DNA of 64,000 bases from Cyclobacteriaceae bacterium (GTDB lineage Bacteria > Bacteroidota > Bacteroidia > Cytophagales > Cyclobacteriaceae). The position numbers were made by a program, and so were the translations under genes. Below are positions 6,557-64,000 of this stretch, piece by piece. Each line of letters begins with the position of its first letter. Positions within the stretch are counted from its first letter, which is position 1. The stretch is from NCBI GenBank assembly GCA_026129485.1, contig JAHCHY010000016.1:48982-112981 (forward strand), given 5' to 3'. The notes below the pieces were generated by a model, which saw nothing but the letters and a program-made list of their open reading frames with translations, did not search any database and was not told where the DNA came from.

Positions 6557-8755
6557 CTACCAGCTCAGCTTTACATGAACTCCATCGGGATTGTTTTCAA
6601 AGCCGAGGAAATGCGTTTTGCTTGTTTCGTCCCACGATGTTTTTGCCTCAACAACATGGCCTGCGGCATCGGTTACTTCTATCTTCAATGCCTTTCCCGG
6701 TAACAAAACCCGCATTACATTATTTGTGTTCAATGGGCTTTTCGCTACGAACGAATATGAGCTTTTGGTAACCTTCTCATCATAAACCCTGGATGCCGCT
6801 GCCAGCACCTGCGGTGTTTTCGGATTTTTAACCTTACCTATATTAAACAAAAATGCCTGCTCACCGGGCTTCACCTGCTTTTCAGCAAGCACCGGAATTT
6901 CCGGGTCAAACAAATCAATTAGCCTGCCTTTGATGGTGTACGGAGCCTGGTCGGCATTTTCATCCACCACCGAGATAATTTCATAAGGCCCGCGCGTAAG
7001 CGCAAAGTGGTTTTTGAATTCCAGCTTCCCGGATTTTGATTCGTACAGCTTCCTGATCGTGCTTACAAATTCAATATCGTTATTTTCGGTTAGCACAAAC
7101 TCTTTCGGATCGTTGCGAACGATCACCACCTTTCCTTTACCGTATGTGTATTCGCCCGCGCTGAAAGGCACTTTCAGGCCAAGCTGCTTAAACAGATGTT
7201 CCGATGGTGCGTTAAAAGAATTTCCATTGGTGTTCCACCACTCCTGCACAGTTTGAAAAGGATCATCATCGCGGCCGGCATATACCAGCGTTCCCCCGTT
7301 CTTCACCCATTCCGCCATGTAGCCGTGCGAAGCCTCTTCCATCGGCTTCATGTTCGAGTACGACATTACGAGAATCTTCACATCCTTCCAGGTCTGCGGA
7401 AAAGAAACATTTTCGATGTGAATGGTTTTTACCGGCACCCCGCGTTTCAACAACGGGAGCGCCTGGCCGTAGAAGTTTGCTAACTGCGGATCTTCATAGC
7501 CATTGTGCGTAGGGAATCGCTGAAACATCAATGAGTTTGACATAAGCACGCCAATGCCCTGCGAGCCGCTTACTTTGTTTTCGGAAAGCGGCATGTGGTT
7601 GAGCGTATTGATCATCACCTGCATTTGCGTGGAATAAAAACGCGGAATCTGTTCCTTCTTATCGCTGTTGGCGCTGGTGCGGTAATATCCTTCGTAAATA
7701 CGATCGGGCCACGGCATCACTTCATAGTCGGCAATCATCGGGTACAGCAACTGCGCGGTGAAGGTGGCCTGGTAATTCCTTTTGTAATCGGCCCAATCGC
7801 GCGGCCAGTCTTCAATCGGGTCGGTCAGGAAAAACATTTTTCTTCCTGTTGGCGCAGTCATCGACTCCATCGAACCGTATTCGAGGAAGGCCGTTTCAAA
7901 TACACGTTCTTTTCTTTTGCCGTTAAAGAAGTTCGGCTCGCGAGAAGTGCCCGTCCACACCTGCGCAATGTACCCATCCACACAAGGTAATGAGGCCAGG
8001 CTTGCTTCCGGGCTCACGATCATCCACTGCGAATAATTCACCAGCGAGTGCGTGGGCACATAACACCGCACATCCATGCCTTTGCTTTTACCGTACTCTT
8101 TCGCGAAAGTGAAGCACTCGTTCAGCGCACGGTAATATAAATGATATTTCAGCTTGTTGGAGAGGTATGTGTTTTCCGGTGATTCATGCTGCGGCCTCCA
8201 GTCGAACCCGTAATACGCTTTCCATTCTTTCTTAAATGCTTCGCTATAGCCTGCGCGCGCCCAGAATTCGGGCTCTTCCAGGTAGATCGCATCAATGCCG
8301 GCATCGATCACGCGCTTGATGATTTTTTCCTTCATATACGCAATGAAGTTTTCAGAAGGAACCAAATAGGGCACCAGCCGGCCGTGCCACAACGTGTCGC
8401 CTTTTTGCGTTACCTGCCCTTCATCAAGGTGCCATTTGCCATCCCAGCCACCGGTGAAATAATCCTGGTATTCGCCCCAGGCAATGCCTGTCATAAAATG
8501 TGCTTTGTAGCCTTTGTCGCGCCAGGACTGCACACGCTCCTCAAACGTCATGCTGCTCCTGCGGTGATGATCTTTTACACTATACACAATGGCCACATCT
8601 GCACGCACATCGGTTACGGGTTTCCACGGATTGGAGGTCTGGAACACGGTCTTCTCTCCCTTGGGCTCTTGTCCTGCTGTTTTCTTTGCAGGCTGTGAAA
8701 AAGCCCGGAAGGTTAAAGTTGCCAGGAGAAAAAATAGTATAGTCGGTTTTTGCAT
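6557..8755 (-). CDS. Unassigned TIM-barrel-like secreted hydrolase of the mannan locus
   Basis: The ATG at 8755 is chosen over an upstream one at 8854 because it begins a signal peptide (MQKPTILFFLLATLTFRAFS). The following 300 residues alternate in a beta/alpha manner and include an acidic strand end, IDAIYLEEPEF, as in clan GH-A glycosidases. Further on, IGVLMSNSLMF to VKNGGTLVYAGRDDD resembles the glutamine-amidotransferase-like domain of GH42 beta-galactosidases. The C-terminus looks like a small beta domain. I do not recognise a named family. It lies between the SusCD unit and GH92 and has two terminator-like hairpins upstream. A role as a glycosidase on mannan side chains is inferred. 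Confidence 0.7.
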   Translation of the reverse strand: MQKPTILFFLLATLTFRAFSQPAKKTAGQEPKGEKTVFQTSNPWKPVTDVRADVAIVYSVKDHHRRSSMTFEERVQSWRDKGYKAHFMTGIAWGEYQDYFTGGWDGKWHLDEGQVTQKGDTLWHGRLVPYLVPSENFIAYMKEKIIKRVIDAGIDAIYLEEPEFWARAGYSEAFKKEWKAYYGFDWRPQHESPENTYLSNKLKYHLYYRALNECFTFAKEYGKSKGMDVRCYVPTHSLVNYSQWMIVSPEASLASLPCVDGYIAQVWTGTSREPNFFNGKRKERVFETAFLEYGSMESMTAPTGRKMFFLTDPIEDWPRDWADYKRNYQATFTAQLLYPMIADYEVMPWPDRIYEGYYRTSANSDKKEQIPRFYSTQMQVMINTLNHMPLSENKVSGSQGIGVLMSNSLMFQRFPTHNGYEDPQLANFYGQALPLLKRGVPVKTIHIENVSFPQTWKDVKILVMSYSNMKPMEEASHGYMAEWVKNGGTLVYAGRDDDPFQTVQEWWNTNGNSFNAPSEHLFKQLGLKVPFSAGEYTYGKGKVVIVRNDPKEFVLTENNDIEFVSTIRKLYESKSGKLEFKNHFALTRGPYEIISVVDENADQAPYTIKGRLIDLFDPEIPVLAEKQVKPGEQAFLFNIGKVKNPKTPQVLAAASRVYDEKVTKSSYSFVAKSPLNTNNVMRVLLPGKALKIEVTDAAGHVVEAKTSWDETSKTHFLGFENNPDGVHVKLSW

Positions 8756-58532: not shown

Positions 58533-58782
58533 CCAAATACCTGCTCACCCACCTTACATCTTTTCGCCAGCGCAGATAGACCTCCATGCATCGGCCAGCG
58601 ATTCAATGTCTGCTCGGTTCAGCTCTCTCAGCATAGTAAGCTCAGCCAGCTTCTGCACATACCAGAATTTATCGATATGCCGGCTGACTGTAAAATCAGG
58701 CAATGCCTTATCCAGCACCTTTACAAGCCGGTGAACTCTTTCAATAAGCTTGTCGAGTTTCTGGTTGCGTGATGTCATTGCT
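58533..58782. repeat. Direct repeat, copy 1 of the duplicated small gene
   Basis: About 250 bp, nearly identical to 59732-59988. Copy 1 lacks 7 bp (CCGGCTA) found in copy 2 after ATGCA (copy 1 near 58592). Homology ends at the bases just upstream of the small gene's start. Confidence 0.9.
58554..58778 (-). CDS. Small protein of unknown function, truncated paralogue of the gene at 59709
   Basis: The 74-residue protein shares its first 62 residues (starting MTSRNQKLDKLIERVHRLVK, including RHIDKFWYVQKLAEL) with the 91-residue gene at 59709-59984, with four to five substitutions. A 7-bp deletion then changes the frame, so the C-terminus (AWRSICAGEKM) differs and the protein is shorter. I do not recognise the family; it is charged and predicted helical. 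Its upstream region is the 230-bp repeat element. Confidence 0.7.
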   Translation of the reverse strand: MTSRNQKLDKLIERVHRLVKVLDKALPDFTVSRHIDKFWYVQKLAELTMLRELNRADIESLADAWRSICAGEKM

Positions 58783-58784
58783 CC

Positions 58785-59016
58785 GAAAAAGTAAAGCCCT
58801 ACGATGACATATCATTTTCGGGCTGTTTCCTTCTATTAACTAAACCTAAACTTTATTTTTTCTTCCTTGTGGTTGCGCTCTGAACTGCTGAGTTCACTTT
58901 ACCTAAACTAAACCCAAACGTTAATCATTAATCACATTTCTTTTCCTGTTCGCTCAACACCCGGCCACAGGTGATGCAACGGCCGCAGGGTGCCGGGGCG
59001 GACACCCCGCGGAGAA
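58785..59016. repeat. About 230-bp non-coding repeat element, copy A
   Basis: More than 90 percent identical by eye to 60825-61044, same orientation. It begins with a hairpin (AGCCC/GGGCT and ATGA/TCAT, 58795-58824) and ends with another (CCGC-A-GGGTG with CACCC-C-GCGG, 58983-59012). Inside are two TAAACC(T/C)AAAC-type repeats. No sustained coding frame. Its function is unknown. It fills most of the gap between 58779 and 59117; the last 100 bases hold only a promoter box. Confidence 0.85.
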
Positions 59017-59095
59017 ATGAAGAAGTCACGGAACCGAGTTTCGCGTTATTGGGGATCTGTGTAGTAAAAAACCATCAAAATCACTACTATTTTTG

Positions 59096-59103
59096 TACCT
59101 TTG
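59096..59103 (+). promoter_or_regulatory. Promoter -7 box for the DUF433/DUF5615 pair
   Basis: TACCTTTG matches TAnnTTTG, 14 nt before the ATG at 59118. The -33 element is not clear. Confidence 0.5.
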
Positions 59104-59117
59104 AAGAAAATGAAAAA

Positions 59118-59345
59118 ATGAACTGGAAAGAACACATAGCTTCTGATCCTGCCATCATGTTCGGAAAAATGGTAATCAAAGGAACAAGGATTCCGGTAGA
59201 GCTTATATTGGAAAAACTGGCAGCAGGGAATTCTTTTGAAACGTTAAAACAAGCATATCCACGTATTACAACAGCAGATATACAGGCTTGCCTGTTATTT
59301 GCGGCAGATAACGCAAAACACGAAAAAACATTAGTCGTAGCGTAA
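59118..59345 (+). CDS. DUF433 family antitoxin-like protein
   Basis: The 75-residue protein has the DUF433 pattern: ASDPAIMFGKMVIKGTRIPVELILEKLAAG, then LKQAYPRITTADIQACLLFAADN. The ATG at 59118 is the correct start; an open frame reaching back to 58971 runs into the repeat element and is not coding. DUF433 proteins pair with DUF5615 PIN-like toxins, which is the next gene (1-4 bp away). Confidence 0.92.
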   Translation: MNWKEHIASDPAIMFGKMVIKGTRIPVELILEKLAAGNSFETLKQAYPRITTADIQACLLFAADNAKHEKTLVVA

Positions 59346-59349
59346 TGTG

Positions 59350-59700
59350 ATGGCAGCGTATCAATTGGTAGCTGATGAAAGCGTTGACTATAGAATCGTT
59401 ATCAGCCTAAGAGCGCTTGGAATGACCGTTTATTCTATTTCGGAGCAACAGCCCTCCATAAAAGACGATACCGTTTTATCTATTGCCAGGGAAAATGAAG
59501 CATTGCTGTTAACTGAAGATAAAGACTTTGGCGAGTTAGTCTTTCGCTTGCAATTGCCACATTGTGGAATACTCCTGATCCGGGTGGATGAAGCAGAACA
59601 AAAAATAGCGACAACAACGGAAGCTATTAAAAAACATTACCCCGAAATGAAAAATAAATTTTCAGTGATCAATAACAGAAAGTTGAGGATCAAAGAATAA
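59350..59700 (+). CDS. DUF5615 PIN-like toxin
   Basis: The 116-residue protein has LVADESVDYRIVISLRALGM, IARENEALLLTEDKDFGELVF and CGILLIRV, matching the DUF5615 PIN-like fold, with the conserved acids Asp and TEDKDF. A GTG at 59347 is the other start. It is probably the ribonuclease toxin of the pair with DUF433 and is intact, unlike the other two PIN genes nearby. Confidence 0.92.
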   Translation: MAAYQLVADESVDYRIVISLRALGMTVYSISEQQPSIKDDTVLSIARENEALLLTEDKDFGELVFRLQLPHCGILLIRVDEAEQKIATTTEAIKKHYPEMKNKFSVINNRKLRIKE

Positions 59701-59708
59701 AAACGTCC

Positions 59709-59984
59709 TTACACCACATTCCTCTCCTTCCCCAAATACCTGCTCACCCACCTCACATCTTTTCTCCACCGCAGATAGACCTCTATGCACCGGCTATCGG
59801 CCAGCGATTCAATGTCTGCTCGGTTCAGCTCTCTCAGCATGGTAAGCTCGGCCAGCTTCTGCACATACCAGAATTTATCAATATGCCGGCTGATTGTAAA
59901 ATCAGGCCATGCCTTATCCAGCACCTTTACAAGCCGGTGAACTCTTTCAATAAGCTTGTCGAGTTTATCATTGCGTGATGTCAT
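59709..59984 (-). CDS. Small protein of unknown function, full-length paralogue
   Basis: The 91-residue protein starts MTSRNDKLDKLIERVHRLVK and ends GKERNVV. It is charged, mostly helical, with RHIDKFWYVQKLAELTMLRE in the middle. It is nearly identical in its first 62 residues to the gene at 58554. The C-terminal extra part (VYLRWRKDVRWVSRYLGKER) is lost in the other copy. No family is recognised. It is convergent with the DUF5615 gene. Confidence 0.72.
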   Translation of the reverse strand: MTSRNDKLDKLIERVHRLVKVLDKAWPDFTISRHIDKFWYVQKLAELTMLRELNRADIESLADSRCIEVYLRWRKDVRWVSRYLGKERNVV

Positions 59985-59988
59985 TGCT
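59732..59988. repeat. Direct repeat, copy 2 of the duplicated small gene
   Basis: Partner of 58533-58782. The sequence upstream of the gene is unrelated in the two copies, so only the gene itself was duplicated. Confidence 0.9.
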
Positions 59989-60393: not shown

Positions 60394-60762
60394 ATGGCTT
60401 TTCTTGTCGATAGCAACATTATTATATATTCTTATTCCAGTGATTACGAATACCTGAGAAAACTTATCCTTGATGAATCCTGCACCGTTTCTGAAATCTC
60501 AAGAGTTGAAGTGCTGGGATACCATACGCTAAAGCAGGAGGAAGAAAAGTATTTTAAGGATGTGTTTAACTATGTGCCTTTAATCCTTCCTTCAAAAGTT
60601 TGTTTTTGACCGTGCCATTGAACTGCGCAAAGCGTATAACCTGAAATTAGGCGACAGCCTCATAGCAGCCACGGCATTGATTCACCATTTAGAGTCTATA
60701 CCCGTAATTTAGCTGACTTTGAAAGAATCCCTGAACTAACGTGTACAAACCCTATTGTTTAA
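60394..60762 (+). pseudogene. VapC-like PIN toxin gene with two frameshifts
   Basis: ATG 60394 starts MAFLVDSNIIIYSYSSDYEY (PIN motif 1 with Asp) and stops at 60609. A second frame continues FVFDRAIELRKAYNLKLGDSLIAATALIHH (PIN motifs 2-3). The original frame then takes over again with VYTRNLADFERIPELTCTNPIV to 60762. Two compensating single-base changes (near 60598 and near 60690) restore a 120-residue VapC. The copy as given cannot make a working toxin. Confidence 0.85.
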
Positions 60763-60824
60763 AGTAATCTCGGGGAAATACCTTCATCCCTTCAATCCTC
60801 CCCCGCCTGCAAAAGAAAGTAAAG

Positions 60825-61044
60825 CCCTACGATGACATATCATTTTCGGGCTATTACCTTCTATTAACCAAACCTAAACTTTATTTTTTCTTCCTTGTGG
60901 TTGCGTTCTGACCTGCTGAGTTCACTTTACCTAAACTAAACCCAAACGTTACTCATTAATCATTTCTTTTCCTGTTTGCTCAACACCCGATCACAGGGTG
61001 ATGCAACTGCCGCAGGGTGCCGGGGCGGACACCTCGCGGGGAAA
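60825..61044. repeat. About 230-bp non-coding repeat element, copy B
   Basis: Partner of 58785-59016, with the same hairpins at both ends (second one at 61010-61039). It abuts the sigma-factor fragment at 61048. AAAAGA is found on both sides (60821 and 61042), which could be a target duplication but may be chance. Confidence 0.85.
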
Positions 61045-61047
61045 AGA

Positions 61048-61245
61048 GAATCTATCGCCCGGCTGCCCCAAAAGCAGGAAGAAGTATTTCGCCTGAGCCG
61101 CATGGAACACCTGTCGATTGAGGAGATAGCCCAACGGCTGAACATATCGAAGCGCACAGTTGAAAACTACATTACGGCTGCGCTAAAAACACTGCGGGGT
61201 AGCCTGGGGGAGTTTTTAGTGCTGGTGCTGTGGGTGGCGGGGTGA
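61048..61245 (+). pseudogene. C-terminal (region 4) fragment of an ECF-type sigma factor
   Basis: The frame reads ARLPQKQEEVFRLSRMEHLS, then IEEIAQRLNISKRTVENYIT and AALKTLRG: the sigma-70 region 4 HTH of a FecI/SusR-type ECF sigma factor. Regions 1-3 are absent and the fragment starts exactly where repeat copy B ends. An open frame running back to 60976 only reads through the repeat. It probably lost its 5' part when the element inserted or recombined. Confidence 0.8.
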
Positions 61246-61268: not shown

Positions 61269-63896
61269 TCAGTATGATTTTATAAACCCGGATAGGCTGG
61301 CCTTGCCCGCTTTTAAAAATTCAATAAAGCTGATTCCCCTGTACTTGCAGGTCTGATGAAGGCTTAAAAGTATGAGGTATTCCTGAAGTCTTTTAGGCGT
61401 GGGCAATCCATCCACCTCCCTTCTGTATAGCGCCACCGCTTTAATAGCAGCTTCGGCATTATTATTATTCCAGGGTATTCCATCGTAATCCAGAAAAGTA
61501 AAAAGCTCACTCTGAAGTGAGCAAAAACGTTTTTGCCATTTTTCGCATAGCGCTGACTCAAACTCCCCGTCATTTAAAACGCTGAAAAAAACCGATACAT
61601 CTTTTTTGTGCTTATTCAGATTCCTTTTTCTTAACCCATGTTTATGGACGGTCAGCACGATGTCATTAAGCAGCTTTGAAAAATTCAATACGATGGTTTT
61701 GTAGTCGTGGTTAAACGGGTTTTTTACTAAGTCATCATTGAGATCCCGGATCAGGTGAATTAAGCATCGTTGCTTGGGGCACTGTACGGCATCGTATCCT
61801 CCGTAAAAATCACTTATTAAAACTCCTTTGAAGTTCGCCAGCAGCTCTTTTAAAAAATCGGATTCCCGTGTAGGTCTGAATAAATAAAATACCGTGTCAA
61901 TATTCGTGAATACCCACACGTAACCGTTCTCTTTCCCAACATGAAAGGTGGTTTCATCAATGTGAATAAGCGGACTGTTTTTGATTTGTTCAATAAGCTC
62001 GTTGTATGCCGTGCTGTAAAATTCAGAAAAATACGATTTAAGGTATTGAATGGCGTTTGACTGGTAATCTATATCAAAGGATTCCTTTAACTGGGCTGCA
62101 ACCTTATTGTAGCTCATCCTGTAATGAACAACCTGGTTAATGATCCAGCAGTTAAGAGTACGGCCATACCTGCTGTGAGCAGTACTAAAATCCTTTGGAA
62201 CGAAAACCTTTTTACACTCCTTGCATTTAAACCGGGTCAGGCGATATAATGTAATCCACCTTTTAATACCCGTTTGGGTTATTTTCAAATCAATAACCTT
62301 TCGCTCGTATTTGTCATGCTTATGGAAAACCACCCCGCTGCATGCAGGGCAGCGTATGGGTCGCTGGATTTCAATAATGCTGTTGGGCCTCAGCTTCCTT
62401 TTTGGTTTTAATCTTTGTGCGCTGATTTTCTTTTGCTGCCGGGCAATTTCAGGATAGGTTTTGATAAAAACTTTTTCCCGTTGATAATTGAAATACGCAA
62501 ACTGATTGATCTGTTCAAGCTCTTTTACCGCAAAATCCGCTTTGCCCCATTTATACAGCGATTCTTTTCTGACATGTGCAGCGTTCTCAAAATTTTTATC
62601 GCTCCCGGAGGAAATGCTTATAATCCAGTCTTTAACGGCTATCAGCGCCTTGCAATCTTCCAGGTTATACGTAATGAGCTTATGTTTTAATTCAGCATCG
62701 TTTGACAGCTCCCAGTAGTACCTCCAAAAGGTGCTTTTTAAGCCTGACGCATCTTTTTCCGACCATTCAAACTTCAGGAATCCGGCTATCTCTTTCAGGC
62801 TGTTTGAGTATGTTGGCGGATAGATATGATGGATGAAAACATCAAGTATGTTAACCGAGTTAGCCATTATCTTCCTGATAAAGTCATGGTATTCCGCAGG
62901 TAAAATTTTCAAGATATTTTTCAACGCCTGTGTTTCATACGAGCCGTAATGATAGACAATGAATTGATTTAACGGTTTGAGAATACTGATCAGGTCAATA
63001 AAGATCTTTACCTGCTCCTGCTCATTATCTGCCCAGAAGGAATAACGGTTCTCGGTATTCCCGGTTTTGATAATTGCGCCTATGAGGTAGTTGTAATTTT
63101 TATCTATAATCCCTTCAAAATCTAAGAACACTTCTGTTTCACTTGATTTTAAAACCAACATTTCGTGGATAAATGCTTTTCCTTCGCGGATGGCCAGCGC
63201 CTTCAGCTCAGGCATAAATTTCCTTTTTCGTAAAGGGCTTTTCTTAGACCGGAAGGTGTAAGACAGTTGCTTGACAGAAAATATACCCCTGTTGTTTTTC
63301 TGCTGAATCTCTTTGGGCTTTAATCCTGCTAAAAGGCTCAGGTCGTCCCGTTCAACAAGCCTTTCAAAACAGTTTTTCTGAAATTCACAAACCGGGCAAT
63401 GGCTGTTTTTAAAAAAGGCAGGAGGATTCGAATGGTGTAAGACTTTATCCAGGTCGTTCTTTAATTTCTTAACCGGTTTCGTAAATGTTGATAATCTGAA
63501 TTTCGTTTGCTGAAGTTTTCTTCCGTAAATTATCTTGCACGTATCAACCCGGAGATCAAATTGATCCTGAATGAACATAGCCTGAAGCGCAACAAACAGC
63601 TTGTTGACGGTTTTGATTTTTTCGAACGGTGAAATAAAAATGGGTAAGATGCTTTTCCCGCCCGTAAATTCAACCCCATCCAGCGTCAAATCAATGGTTG
63701 CATTGGTGAATTTATAATTCAATACAACTTCTTCTTTGCGGTTAATCGTTTTACTGAATCTTTCCTGCTGAATTTGCTTTAACCTGTCATAGAGTTGCTG
63801 GTATTCCAGGTTGTTTCCCTTCTCATGCCTGAATTTTCTGTATGCTTTGTACGGACAATGAATCAGATCGTGAATTATTCCATCAGTTATCTGCAT
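61269..63896 (-). CDS. TM0106-type RecB/Cas4-like nuclease, DEDD exonuclease and IS66-like transposase fusion
   Basis: The 875-residue protein (ATG 63896; a TTG at 63923 is possible) has four parts. Residues 1-240 resemble the Cas4/RecB-like domain of the TM0106 family: Cys14 in LIHCPYKAYRKF and Cys167/170/176 in HCPVCEFQKNCFERLV could bind 4Fe-4S, and Asp69 could be the first PD-(D/E)XK acid. The usual (D/E)xK strand is not clear. Residues 250-430 are a DEDD RNase-H-like exonuclease: FLDFEG (D259, E261), NILDVF (D352), YNLEDC (D414). Residues 510-565 are a zinc ribbon (C516/C519, C558/C561). Residues 640-860 are an IS66-like DDE core: IHIDET (D647), LISDFYGGYDA (D696), NNNAEAAIKAV (E815). 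In TM0106 proteins a helicase normally follows the nuclease; here it is a transposase. No terminal repeats or accessory ORFs were found in the window. Confidence 0.87.
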   Translation of the reverse strand: MQITDGIIHDLIHCPYKAYRKFRHEKGNNLEYQQLYDRLKQIQQERFSKTINRKEEVVLNYKFTNATIDLTLDGVEFTGGKSILPIFISPFEKIKTVNKLFVALQAMFIQDQFDLRVDTCKIIYGRKLQQTKFRLSTFTKPVKKLKNDLDKVLHHSNPPAFFKNSHCPVCEFQKNCFERLVERDDLSLLAGLKPKEIQQKNNRGIFSVKQLSYTFRSKKSPLRKRKFMPELKALAIREGKAFIHEMLVLKSSETEVFLDFEGIIDKNYNYLIGAIIKTGNTENRYSFWADNEQEQVKIFIDLISILKPLNQFIVYHYGSYETQALKNILKILPAEYHDFIRKIMANSVNILDVFIHHIYPPTYSNSLKEIAGFLKFEWSEKDASGLKSTFWRYYWELSNDAELKHKLITYNLEDCKALIAVKDWIISISSGSDKNFENAAHVRKESLYKWGKADFAVKELEQINQFAYFNYQREKVFIKTYPEIARQQKKISAQRLKPKRKLRPNSIIEIQRPIRCPACSGVVFHKHDKYERKVIDLKITQTGIKRWITLYRLTRFKCKECKKVFVPKDFSTAHSRYGRTLNCWIINQVVHYRMSYNKVAAQLKESFDIDYQSNAIQYLKSYFSEFYSTAYNELIEQIKNSPLIHIDETTFHVGKENGYVWVFTNIDTVFYLFRPTRESDFLKELLANFKGVLISDFYGGYDAVQCPKQRCLIHLIRDLNDDLVKNPFNHDYKTIVLNFSKLLNDIVLTVHKHGLRKRNLNKHKKDVSVFFSVLNDGEFESALCEKWQKRFCSLQSELFTFLDYDGIPWNNNNAEAAIKAVALYRREVDGLPTPKRLQEYLILLSLHQTCKYRGISFIEFLKAGKASLSGFIKSY

Positions 63897-63954
63897 ATAC
63901 ACCTGTTCGGGCTGTTCCTTCAAAGAAATTAAAAGAAGCCTGAAGAAACAGGAA

Positions 63955-63971
63955 GTTATTGCAGGAATAAC
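63955..63971. promoter_or_regulatory. Short inverted repeat upstream of the fusion gene
   Basis: GTTATT-GCAGG-AATAAC is a perfect 6-bp dyad about 60 bp before the start. It may be an operator. The rest of the sequence to the window end shows no gene. Confidence 0.3.
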
Positions 63972-64000
63972 AAGCCTGGAACAAAGAGAAAAAGGTATAT

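Follow-up and report, generated by a model that had tools for sequence, protein, structure and literature searches.

A Cas4-like, exonuclease and IS66-type DDE fusion protein family and the direct repeats that bracket a subset of its genes

The closest described relatives of the gene reported here belong to two protein families. TM0106 proteins (TIGR03491) join a RecB-like nuclease and an RNase-H-like domain to a superfamily 1 (SF1) helicase, and TnpC of IS66 elements has a zinc ribbon and a DDE transposase domain. The gene lies in a stretch of 64,000 nucleotides from a Cyclobacteriaceae bacterium (assembly GCA_026129485.1, contig JAHCHY010000016.1, positions 48,982 to 112,981; referred to as the window) and encodes a fusion protein whose Cas4-like and DEDD N-terminal half is homologous to that of TM0106, with the four cysteines kept, and which has a DDE transposase where TM0106 proteins have the SF1 helicase. 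The zinc ribbon and DDE domain of the fusion are homologous to those of IS66 TnpC and the triad is kept, whereas the N-terminal nuclease half, a low copy number and the lack of visible GTAA-type inverted repeats distinguish it from TnpC.

Three further systems invite comparison. Casposons, which are elements with a Cas1 integrase, insert by the 3' ends of tRNA genes and of the archaeal elongation factor 2 (aEF-2) gene according to PMC4046053, which also describes a gene for polymerase B and, in one case, a fusion of a Cas4-like domain with an SF1 helicase. The fusion elements considered below resemble casposons in manner of working only and are not homologous to them as elements: they have a DDE enzyme and an exonuclease domain but no polymerase, and neither Cas1 nor terminal inverted repeats were found. 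Compared with Cas4-Cas1-Cas2 spacer acquisition in systems of clustered regularly interspaced short palindromic repeats (CRISPR), the fusion has a DDE domain instead of Cas1, its Cas4 part is probably inactive as a nuclease, and arrays of regular repeats are not a general feature of the gene's surroundings. Islands that integrate at tRNA genes by means of a tyrosine recombinase share with the fusion elements both direct repeats of gene 3' ends and a variable cargo, but no tyrosine recombinase is seen in the bounded fusion elements among the 25 of 38 protein families shown for them. A description of the Cas4-like/exonuclease/IS66-DDE combination was not found in the open-licence literature searched, in which IS66 is mentioned only as a member of a clade in the excerpt of PMC3985635, and the combination therefore appears undescribed, as the initial annotation of the window had supposed.

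Architecture and conservation of the fusion protein

The fusion gene occupies positions 61269-63896 on the minus strand, with its ATG at 63896 and its stop codon ending at 61269, and is delimited by the open reading frame (ORF), profile matches, predicted structure and conserved residues. It forms a single frame of 875 amino acids, and the plus-strand reading of the same interval contains 40 stops. The gene start is separated by 104 bp (63897..64000) from the end of the 112,981-bp contig, on whose last base the window stops; the frame is open up to the contig end, yet several relatives align from the identical ATG. Only one copy is present in the source assembly. Both halves match known families far above chance, with the TM0106 model TIGR03491 aligning to residues 85-425 (E 2.4e-48, 165.3 bits against a cut-off of 97.45) and the IS66 transposase model NF033517 to residues 497-862 (E 7e-53, 180.1 bits against a cut-off of 180). 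The Pfam families RNase_H_2 (3.3e-23) and DDE_Tnp_IS66 (1.6e-29) are matched also, and Cas_Cas4 (2.4e-4) falls slightly below its cut-off. An uninterrupted gene in which an IS66-like DDE domain, rather than a helicase, comes after a half of TM0106 type had been proposed from the letters of the window alone, and these matches bear it out.

Structure prediction with AlphaFold gives three confident lobes, a Cas4-like lobe (residues 1-183), an exonuclease lobe of the type found in family B polymerases (252-437) and a DDE transposase lobe (519-854), in agreement with the domain limits of 1-240, 250-430 and 510-875 suggested earlier. The Cas4-like domain (63348..63896, minus strand, as are all parts of the gene) contains the iron-sulphur-type (Fe-S-type) cysteines C14, C167, C170 and C176, and its PD-(D/E)XK motif is degenerate. 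The DEDDy 3'-5' exonuclease domain (62586..63143) carries D259, E261, E321, Y410 and D414, and the C-terminal part (residues 505-875, 61272..62384) comprises a zinc ribbon (C516, C519, C558, C561) and the DDE residues D647, D696 and E815. The halves are joined by a flexible linker (residues 445-500, 62397..62564) that corresponds to a low-confidence stretch between residues 445 and 499, with predicted local distance difference test (pLDDT) values below 50 in 445-451, 469-490 and 492-499. The structure-comparison list consists mostly of polymerase exonuclease entries, and the absence of other folds from it carries no weight.

Two of the active sites are conserved throughout. The exonuclease D, E, Y and D are kept in all 83 aligned fusions and the DDE triad is invariant in 69/69. 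The Cas4-like part retains its four cysteines across the family, and its nuclease motif is degenerate: in a variable region of uncertain alignment, motif II has D in 41/83, the acid column of motif III has E in 8/83 and lacks D among its eight commonest residues, and the lysine column is ambiguous with K in 52. The D, D and K of this motif are present in 13/13 canonical TM0106 proteins, and the aspartate of a VDL motif near the exonuclease site, which is D in the same 13/13, is N in 81/83 fusions. As judged from these residues, the Cas4-like lobe is probably inactive as a nuclease. The initial annotation had suggested a system that processes DNA ends itself; with the PD-(D/E)XK motif degenerate, any such processing would rest on the polymerase-type exonuclease domain. 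Fusions from one genus (L034, L038 and L036, from genomes G591 and G666) are extended at the C terminus by repeats of the unit 'FLPF.KAR.YMRKLGLR...GW..W.DWLG', which resemble DNA-binding integrase repeats.

A scan of genome contigs yielded 377 relatives among 484 stretches, and the family results rest on the best 80 of these 377, the majority of which are full-length and which come from many phyla; three (L055, L099 and L103) are frameshifted. Both halves are matched in five further genomes of the 390 searched in the window's own family group, and any match occurs in 59/390, the remainder being mostly to one half only, as expected of ordinary TM0106 or IS66 proteins. The fusion is found in three more genomes of the window's class (G490, G591, G771), with E<=1e-60 in 6/395 when its own genome is included, and in 2/387 and 2/386 genomes in the phyla of L096 and L092, the query genome being counted each time. 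Two cyanobacterial plasmids also carry it, annotated as a TM0106 nuclease in one and as an IS66 transposase in the other. A link with phages was not found, as 0/160 candidate stretches in viral contigs were confirmed, and 0/1 in a first scan.

The evolutionary distances of the two halves correlate across the relatives (Mantel r 0.76, the highest of 999 permutations being 0.16), and relatives align across the junction, which together rule out a misassembly or an accident of a single genome. Restriction to this genome, or misassembly, was what the initial annotation had named as grounds for refutation, and both fail because the same chain exists in many phyla. In a quick tree of 69 proteins, with support from the Shimodaira-Hasegawa-like approximate likelihood ratio test (SH-aLRT) only and with phylum labels as in the records, many of which are metagenome-assembled genomes (MAGs), there are 27 changes of phylum label against a minimum of 11 and a shuffled mean of 42. 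Kinship among these sequences is thus partly by phylum, with much mixing, and a fork with support of 100 unites fusion proteins from Planctomycetota, Myxococcota and Cupriavidus. By these sequence comparisons, the fusion is a real, widespread and rare protein family.

Direct repeats around the fusion genes

Repeats flanking the gene were first noticed in a 22-mer search and by inspection of the sequences, and were then scored as ungapped matches between the two flanks. At a score of at least 20, a threshold picked after the scores were known, direct matches are present at 14/77 loci, inverted matches at 3/77, and none in 200 mismatched pairs of flanks. Since the inverted sense is also somewhat above the mismatched pairs, genes of the same loci are the only fair control. 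Among loci that have 1 kb or more of sequence on each side, direct repeats bracket 13/50 fusion genes and 4/76 control genes (Fisher p 0.0012), the fusion and control counts being 15 and 8, 13 and 5, 11 and 3, and 10 and 3 at thresholds of 16, 18, 25 and 30 respectively; omission of L096 gives 12/50 (p 0.0047). Protein-level matches of at least 35 bits across the gene are found in the direct sense at 11/80 loci where 0.28 are expected, and at none in the inverted sense, although two of the 11 are an array repeat (L039) and a pair of DUF433-like genes (L077). A follow-up run covered 13 loci, of which L159 duplicates L129, L128 had been tested earlier and the flank of L201 is too short, leaving 10 new testable loci. 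Two of these have repeats, L152 with a score of 42 and L205 with a score of 17.5, which is below the threshold yet exactly at a tRNA-Arg 3' end.

Together with L152 and L205, the 13 segments obtained without L096 (counting L129 in spite of its short flanks) make 15 bounded segments, and 10 of the 15 have repeats that correspond to the 3' end of a tRNA gene or a protein-coding gene. Exact copies of tRNA 3' ends are found at L079 (tRNA-Gly, 30 bp) and L126 (tRNA-Asn, 25 bp), and L205 has 20 columns of a tRNA-Arg 3' end. At L129 the repeat is a tRNA-Glu end with downstream DNA, 44 bp in length, the tRNA 3' end facing away from the fusion and the contig ending within the repeats; a similar repeat of 47 columns, again a tRNA-Glu end with downstream DNA, is present at L152, whose fusion is 49% identical to that of L129 and comes from the same MAG. 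The repeats at L054 are tRNA-Met-derived copies, and those at L075 consist, by eye, of a tRNA-like end together with about 320 bp located where the contig starts. Protein-coding ends account for L067 (comM) and L120 (an IS3-type transposase), both named from their translations, and for L040 (AbiEii, by Pfam). Twelve tRNAs are present in 88 loci, and seven of the eight that lie within 1.5 kb of the fusion point their 3' end toward it.

In every segment but L205, hence in 14/15, a repeat is found no more than 0.4 kb from the fusion gene. Besides the fusion, the segments contain 56 ORFs of at least 70 amino acids, and three segments (L114, L118 and L129) lack any further ORF of this length. No integrase, resolvase or transposase is present among the 25 of 38 Pfam families shown for these ORFs, nor is Cas1, for which the fusion itself also gives no match. 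The families include AbiEii (3), AbiEi_2, Gp49, HTH, Fic, DUF433, DUF5615, Schlafen-AlbA, TOTE primase and AAA. The tRNA-Arg element of L205 (6133-11756) holds a TOTE primase-helicase, an N-terminally truncated fusion and an AbiEi/AbiEii pair.

A candidate empty site was obtained for one element. The L054 region was searched in 199 genomes of the Flavobacterium group, 194 of which match, and about 89 of the 144 era-region rows among the matches listed (counted by hand) begin at query positions 6629-6640, within about 11 bp of the tRNA-Met 3' end; the remainder start as much as 400 bp past that end, or else within it and the gene that follows. Two relatives from Flavobacterium (L226 and L219) have just one block beside this tRNA, at its 3' end, and it matches both borders of the L054 element (left, 1899/1928-2063; right, 6422/6424-6583/6586), and this may represent the site before insertion, although L054 holds further tandem copies of the tRNA end.

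The best reading, which we hold at about even odds, is that the fusion serves as the integrating enzyme of small mobile elements, some 3 to 6 kb in length, that enter at gene 3' ends, often those of tRNA genes. After insertion at the 3' end of a gene, each side of the element would bear a copy of the gene end. The Cas4-like Fe-S lobe, its nuclease function lost, could hold either the target or an end of the DNA, 3' ends would be trimmed by the exonuclease lobe of polymerase type, and the zinc ribbon and DDE lobe would join the trimmed end to the target, with a toxin-antitoxin or other conflict gene, often carried, helping to keep the element in place. We infer each of these enzymatic steps, as we do the role of the fusion as cause of the repeats. 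A broader proposal, which is tentative, is that these are a new class of integrating element, in which a single-chain Cas4-like/polymerase-type exonuclease/DDE integrase may trim ends and place small elements carrying conflict genes at gene 3' ends with neither inverted repeats nor a tyrosine, serine or Cas1 recombinase. The suggestion of a new transposition system in the initial annotation fares unevenly: long direct repeats are found at about a quarter of testable loci and many are gene 3' ends, and IS66-type inverted repeats are not seen.

The window locus, neighboring genes and integron-like settings

In the window, a plus-strand fragment (61047..61245) that resembles the 3' end of a sigma-70-type gene, and clusters with a sigma-like neighbor of the fusion in L121, ends 24 bp away from the stop codon of the fusion gene. 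This fragment may be the insertion target. No second copy of the sigma-like gene end is present in the source assembly, and the 104-bp piece between the gene start and the contig end has no further long match there. That the window copy is an insertion beside this gene end we only infer, because its other border would lie beyond the contig end and a partner repeat was not found. The L052 fusion, 57% identical to that of the window, lies 94 bp from the 3' end of a tRNA-Pro gene, and a copy of that end as a repeat was not detected. Between 57993 and 61047 the window contains an array of small toxin-antitoxin-like genes interspersed with two kinds of direct repeat, of about 232 bp (58788-59020 and 60816-61047) and about 250 bp (58533-58782 and 59732-59988), which are 90-96% identical. 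A toxin-antitoxin-like DUF433/DUF5615 pair is at 58971..59700 on the plus strand, both families also being represented among the ORFs of the bounded elements, and by eye there is a PIN-like ORF at 60394-60609, which lacks a Pfam match.

We scanned 190 of the 216 listed near-neighbor ORFs, and one further ORF of L106, in two pools of 98 and 93. The families are mixed and often those of plain host genes, and include AbiE, Gp49/HTH, Abi_2, PIN, restriction and TOTE genes; a constant toxin-antitoxin partner was rejected on account of this mixture, and we claim no enrichment of conflict genes. Phage_integrase is found in 2/98 and 2/93 of the scanned ORFs. No general association of the gene with CRISPR-like arrays or with regular tandem arrays was found across the loci. 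Two loci (L106, 1723-7709, and L110, 4984-10971) share a 93% identical block of 6 kb at two different sites, with nuclease-like, methyltransferase-like and fusion genes; its borders are sharp, and by eye there are neither inverted repeats nor an 8-bp duplication at its ends. In L106 the block sits between hsdM-like and hsdR-like fragments.

In one clade of Bacteroidota (L039 and L057-L061) the fusion gene forms, with AbiEi-like (DUF6088) and AbiEii-like genes, a block of about 4.3-4.5 kb whose pairs are 95-96% identical and which ends in attC-like sites. An attC-like site with complementary R'' and R' boxes adjoins the gene block, by sequence, in L039 and L059. The L039 locus (G308:C1:148000-166000), from a genome of the window's genus, contains an array of 124-135 bp attC-like repeats, which recur at other places of the same genome and in genomes related to it, and from its sequence this array appears to be an integron-like cassette array in Bacteroidota. 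A model of the integron integrase scored below its curated cut-off in all eight genomes searched, and gave weak matches in all 14 control genomes too. By eye, a group II intron-like end is located at the same attC-like R'' position in two different genomes (L061, about 4980, and L060, about 12540), and an Rfam group II match was found in L055 only.

Integration enzyme or passenger

Several observations weigh against the fusion acting as an integration enzyme. The test for direct repeats was devised only once repeats had come to light at these very loci, 37 of the 50 well-flanked loci have no such repeats, nor do eight of the 10 new ones, and the inverted sense is in mild excess as well (5/77 against 0/200 mismatched pairs at a score of at least 18). 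Among the repeats themselves, that of L070 is a parA/parB junction (read from translation), that of L095 an attC-like site, and those of L084, L114 and L118 have no assigned identity; the repeat of L096, left out of the 15, was read as a repetitive extragenic palindrome (REP) beside a RAYT-like gene. Several repeats are imperfect, and are therefore not fresh target duplications. At three of the loci with a nearby tRNA (L052, L071 and L072) a copy of the repeat was not found past the fusion, and a fourth, L046, has only a 14-bp match that falls short of it. The candidate empty site is for L054 only, with none shown for the window copy or for most elements, and no element ends were found for the DDE lobe to recognize. 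The fusion is present at one to three copies in each of 27 genomes and the copies differ from one another in score, although draft assemblies could hide identical ones. In the Bacteroidota clade, the fusion looks like a cassette passenger that an integron integrase could move.

The main rival explanation, less likely than the integration enzyme but a serious alternative that the initial annotation had also raised, extends this last point to the whole family. The fusion would be a domesticated transposase, serving as a nuclease in host or element defence or in DNA-end repair, and traveling as a passenger in genomic islands, cassettes of integrons and clusters of toxin-antitoxin genes whose movement depends on other enzymes. 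The low number and divergence of the copies, the sporadic spread over many phyla, the defence-type families among the neighbors, the integron-like cassettes of one clade, the block with nuclease- and methyltransferase-like genes shared by the close copies L106 and L110, and the failure to see IS66-type inverted repeats are all consistent with domestication. However, those neighbors are mixed and often plain host genes, none of them is a constant partner, in three bounded elements the fusion is the sole ORF of at least 70 amino acids, and a DDE triad unbroken in 69/69 proteins suggests a task in joining or cutting DNA.

It is improbable that the fusion is simply the transposase of an IS66-family transposon that has acquired a TM0106 half and retains the usual short inverted repeats and 8-bp duplication, with its ends having been missed. 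The NF033517 match at its cut-off and the conserved triad would fit such an element, and we examined the best inverted match between the flanks of each locus relative to mismatched pairs, with ordinary IS66 loci as the positive control. GTAA-type inverted repeats are found at five of eight ordinary IS66 loci (L009, L012, L013, L017 and L028), with an additional 8-bp target duplication at L028, but not among the best fusion matches shown (25 for 85 loci; 10 for 55 loci). Inverted matches at the fusion loci are slightly above mismatched pairs, with 8/85 reaching the 95th percentile when 600-bp flanks are used (about 4 expected) and 11/55 with 1500-bp flanks (about 3 expected); only L096 at 600 bp, and only L096 and L097 at 1500 bp, exceed the highest mismatched pair. 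Compared with control genes there is no excess of inverted matches (3/50 against 2/76, p 0.38). Contig ends are in excess near the start of the gene, seven of 47 contigs of at least 12 kb ending within 700 bp of its 5' side where 1.24 are expected (simulated p 0.0002, for one of ten settings tried per side), and 2/47 on the 3' side. This excess fits, indirectly, the presence of nearby repeats, as an IS66 transposon would provide, and identical copies can be hidden in drafts.

Least probable of all, and by our estimate very doubtful, is that the elements are small islands or satellites whose integration is due to a tyrosine recombinase from another part of the genome, with the fusion merely stabilizing or processing them, because, although repeats of tRNA 3' ends are the usual mark of tyrosine-recombinase islands and Phage_integrase does occur in the neighbor scan, no such recombinase is seen in the 15 bounded elements (within the families shown), the elements come from several phyla, and in 14/15 a repeat lies close to the fusion gene (within 0.4 kb), which is where an element's own integrase gene usually sits.

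Even as a domesticated passenger, the fusion would merit testing, as a family of no described function that has been kept intact across many phyla and in which two active sites are conserved. If the fusion is instead an integration enzyme that acts at gene 3' ends, DDE enzymes would gain a route by which to insert DNA at chosen sites without inverted repeats, and Cas4-like and trimming-exonuclease modules would be joined to an integrase outside CRISPR systems and casposons. The fusion would then be a DDE-based counterpart both of casposons and of the trio of Cas4, exonuclease and integrase in spacer acquisition, and would bear on the origin of such trios and on the spread of toxin-antitoxin and other conflict genes.

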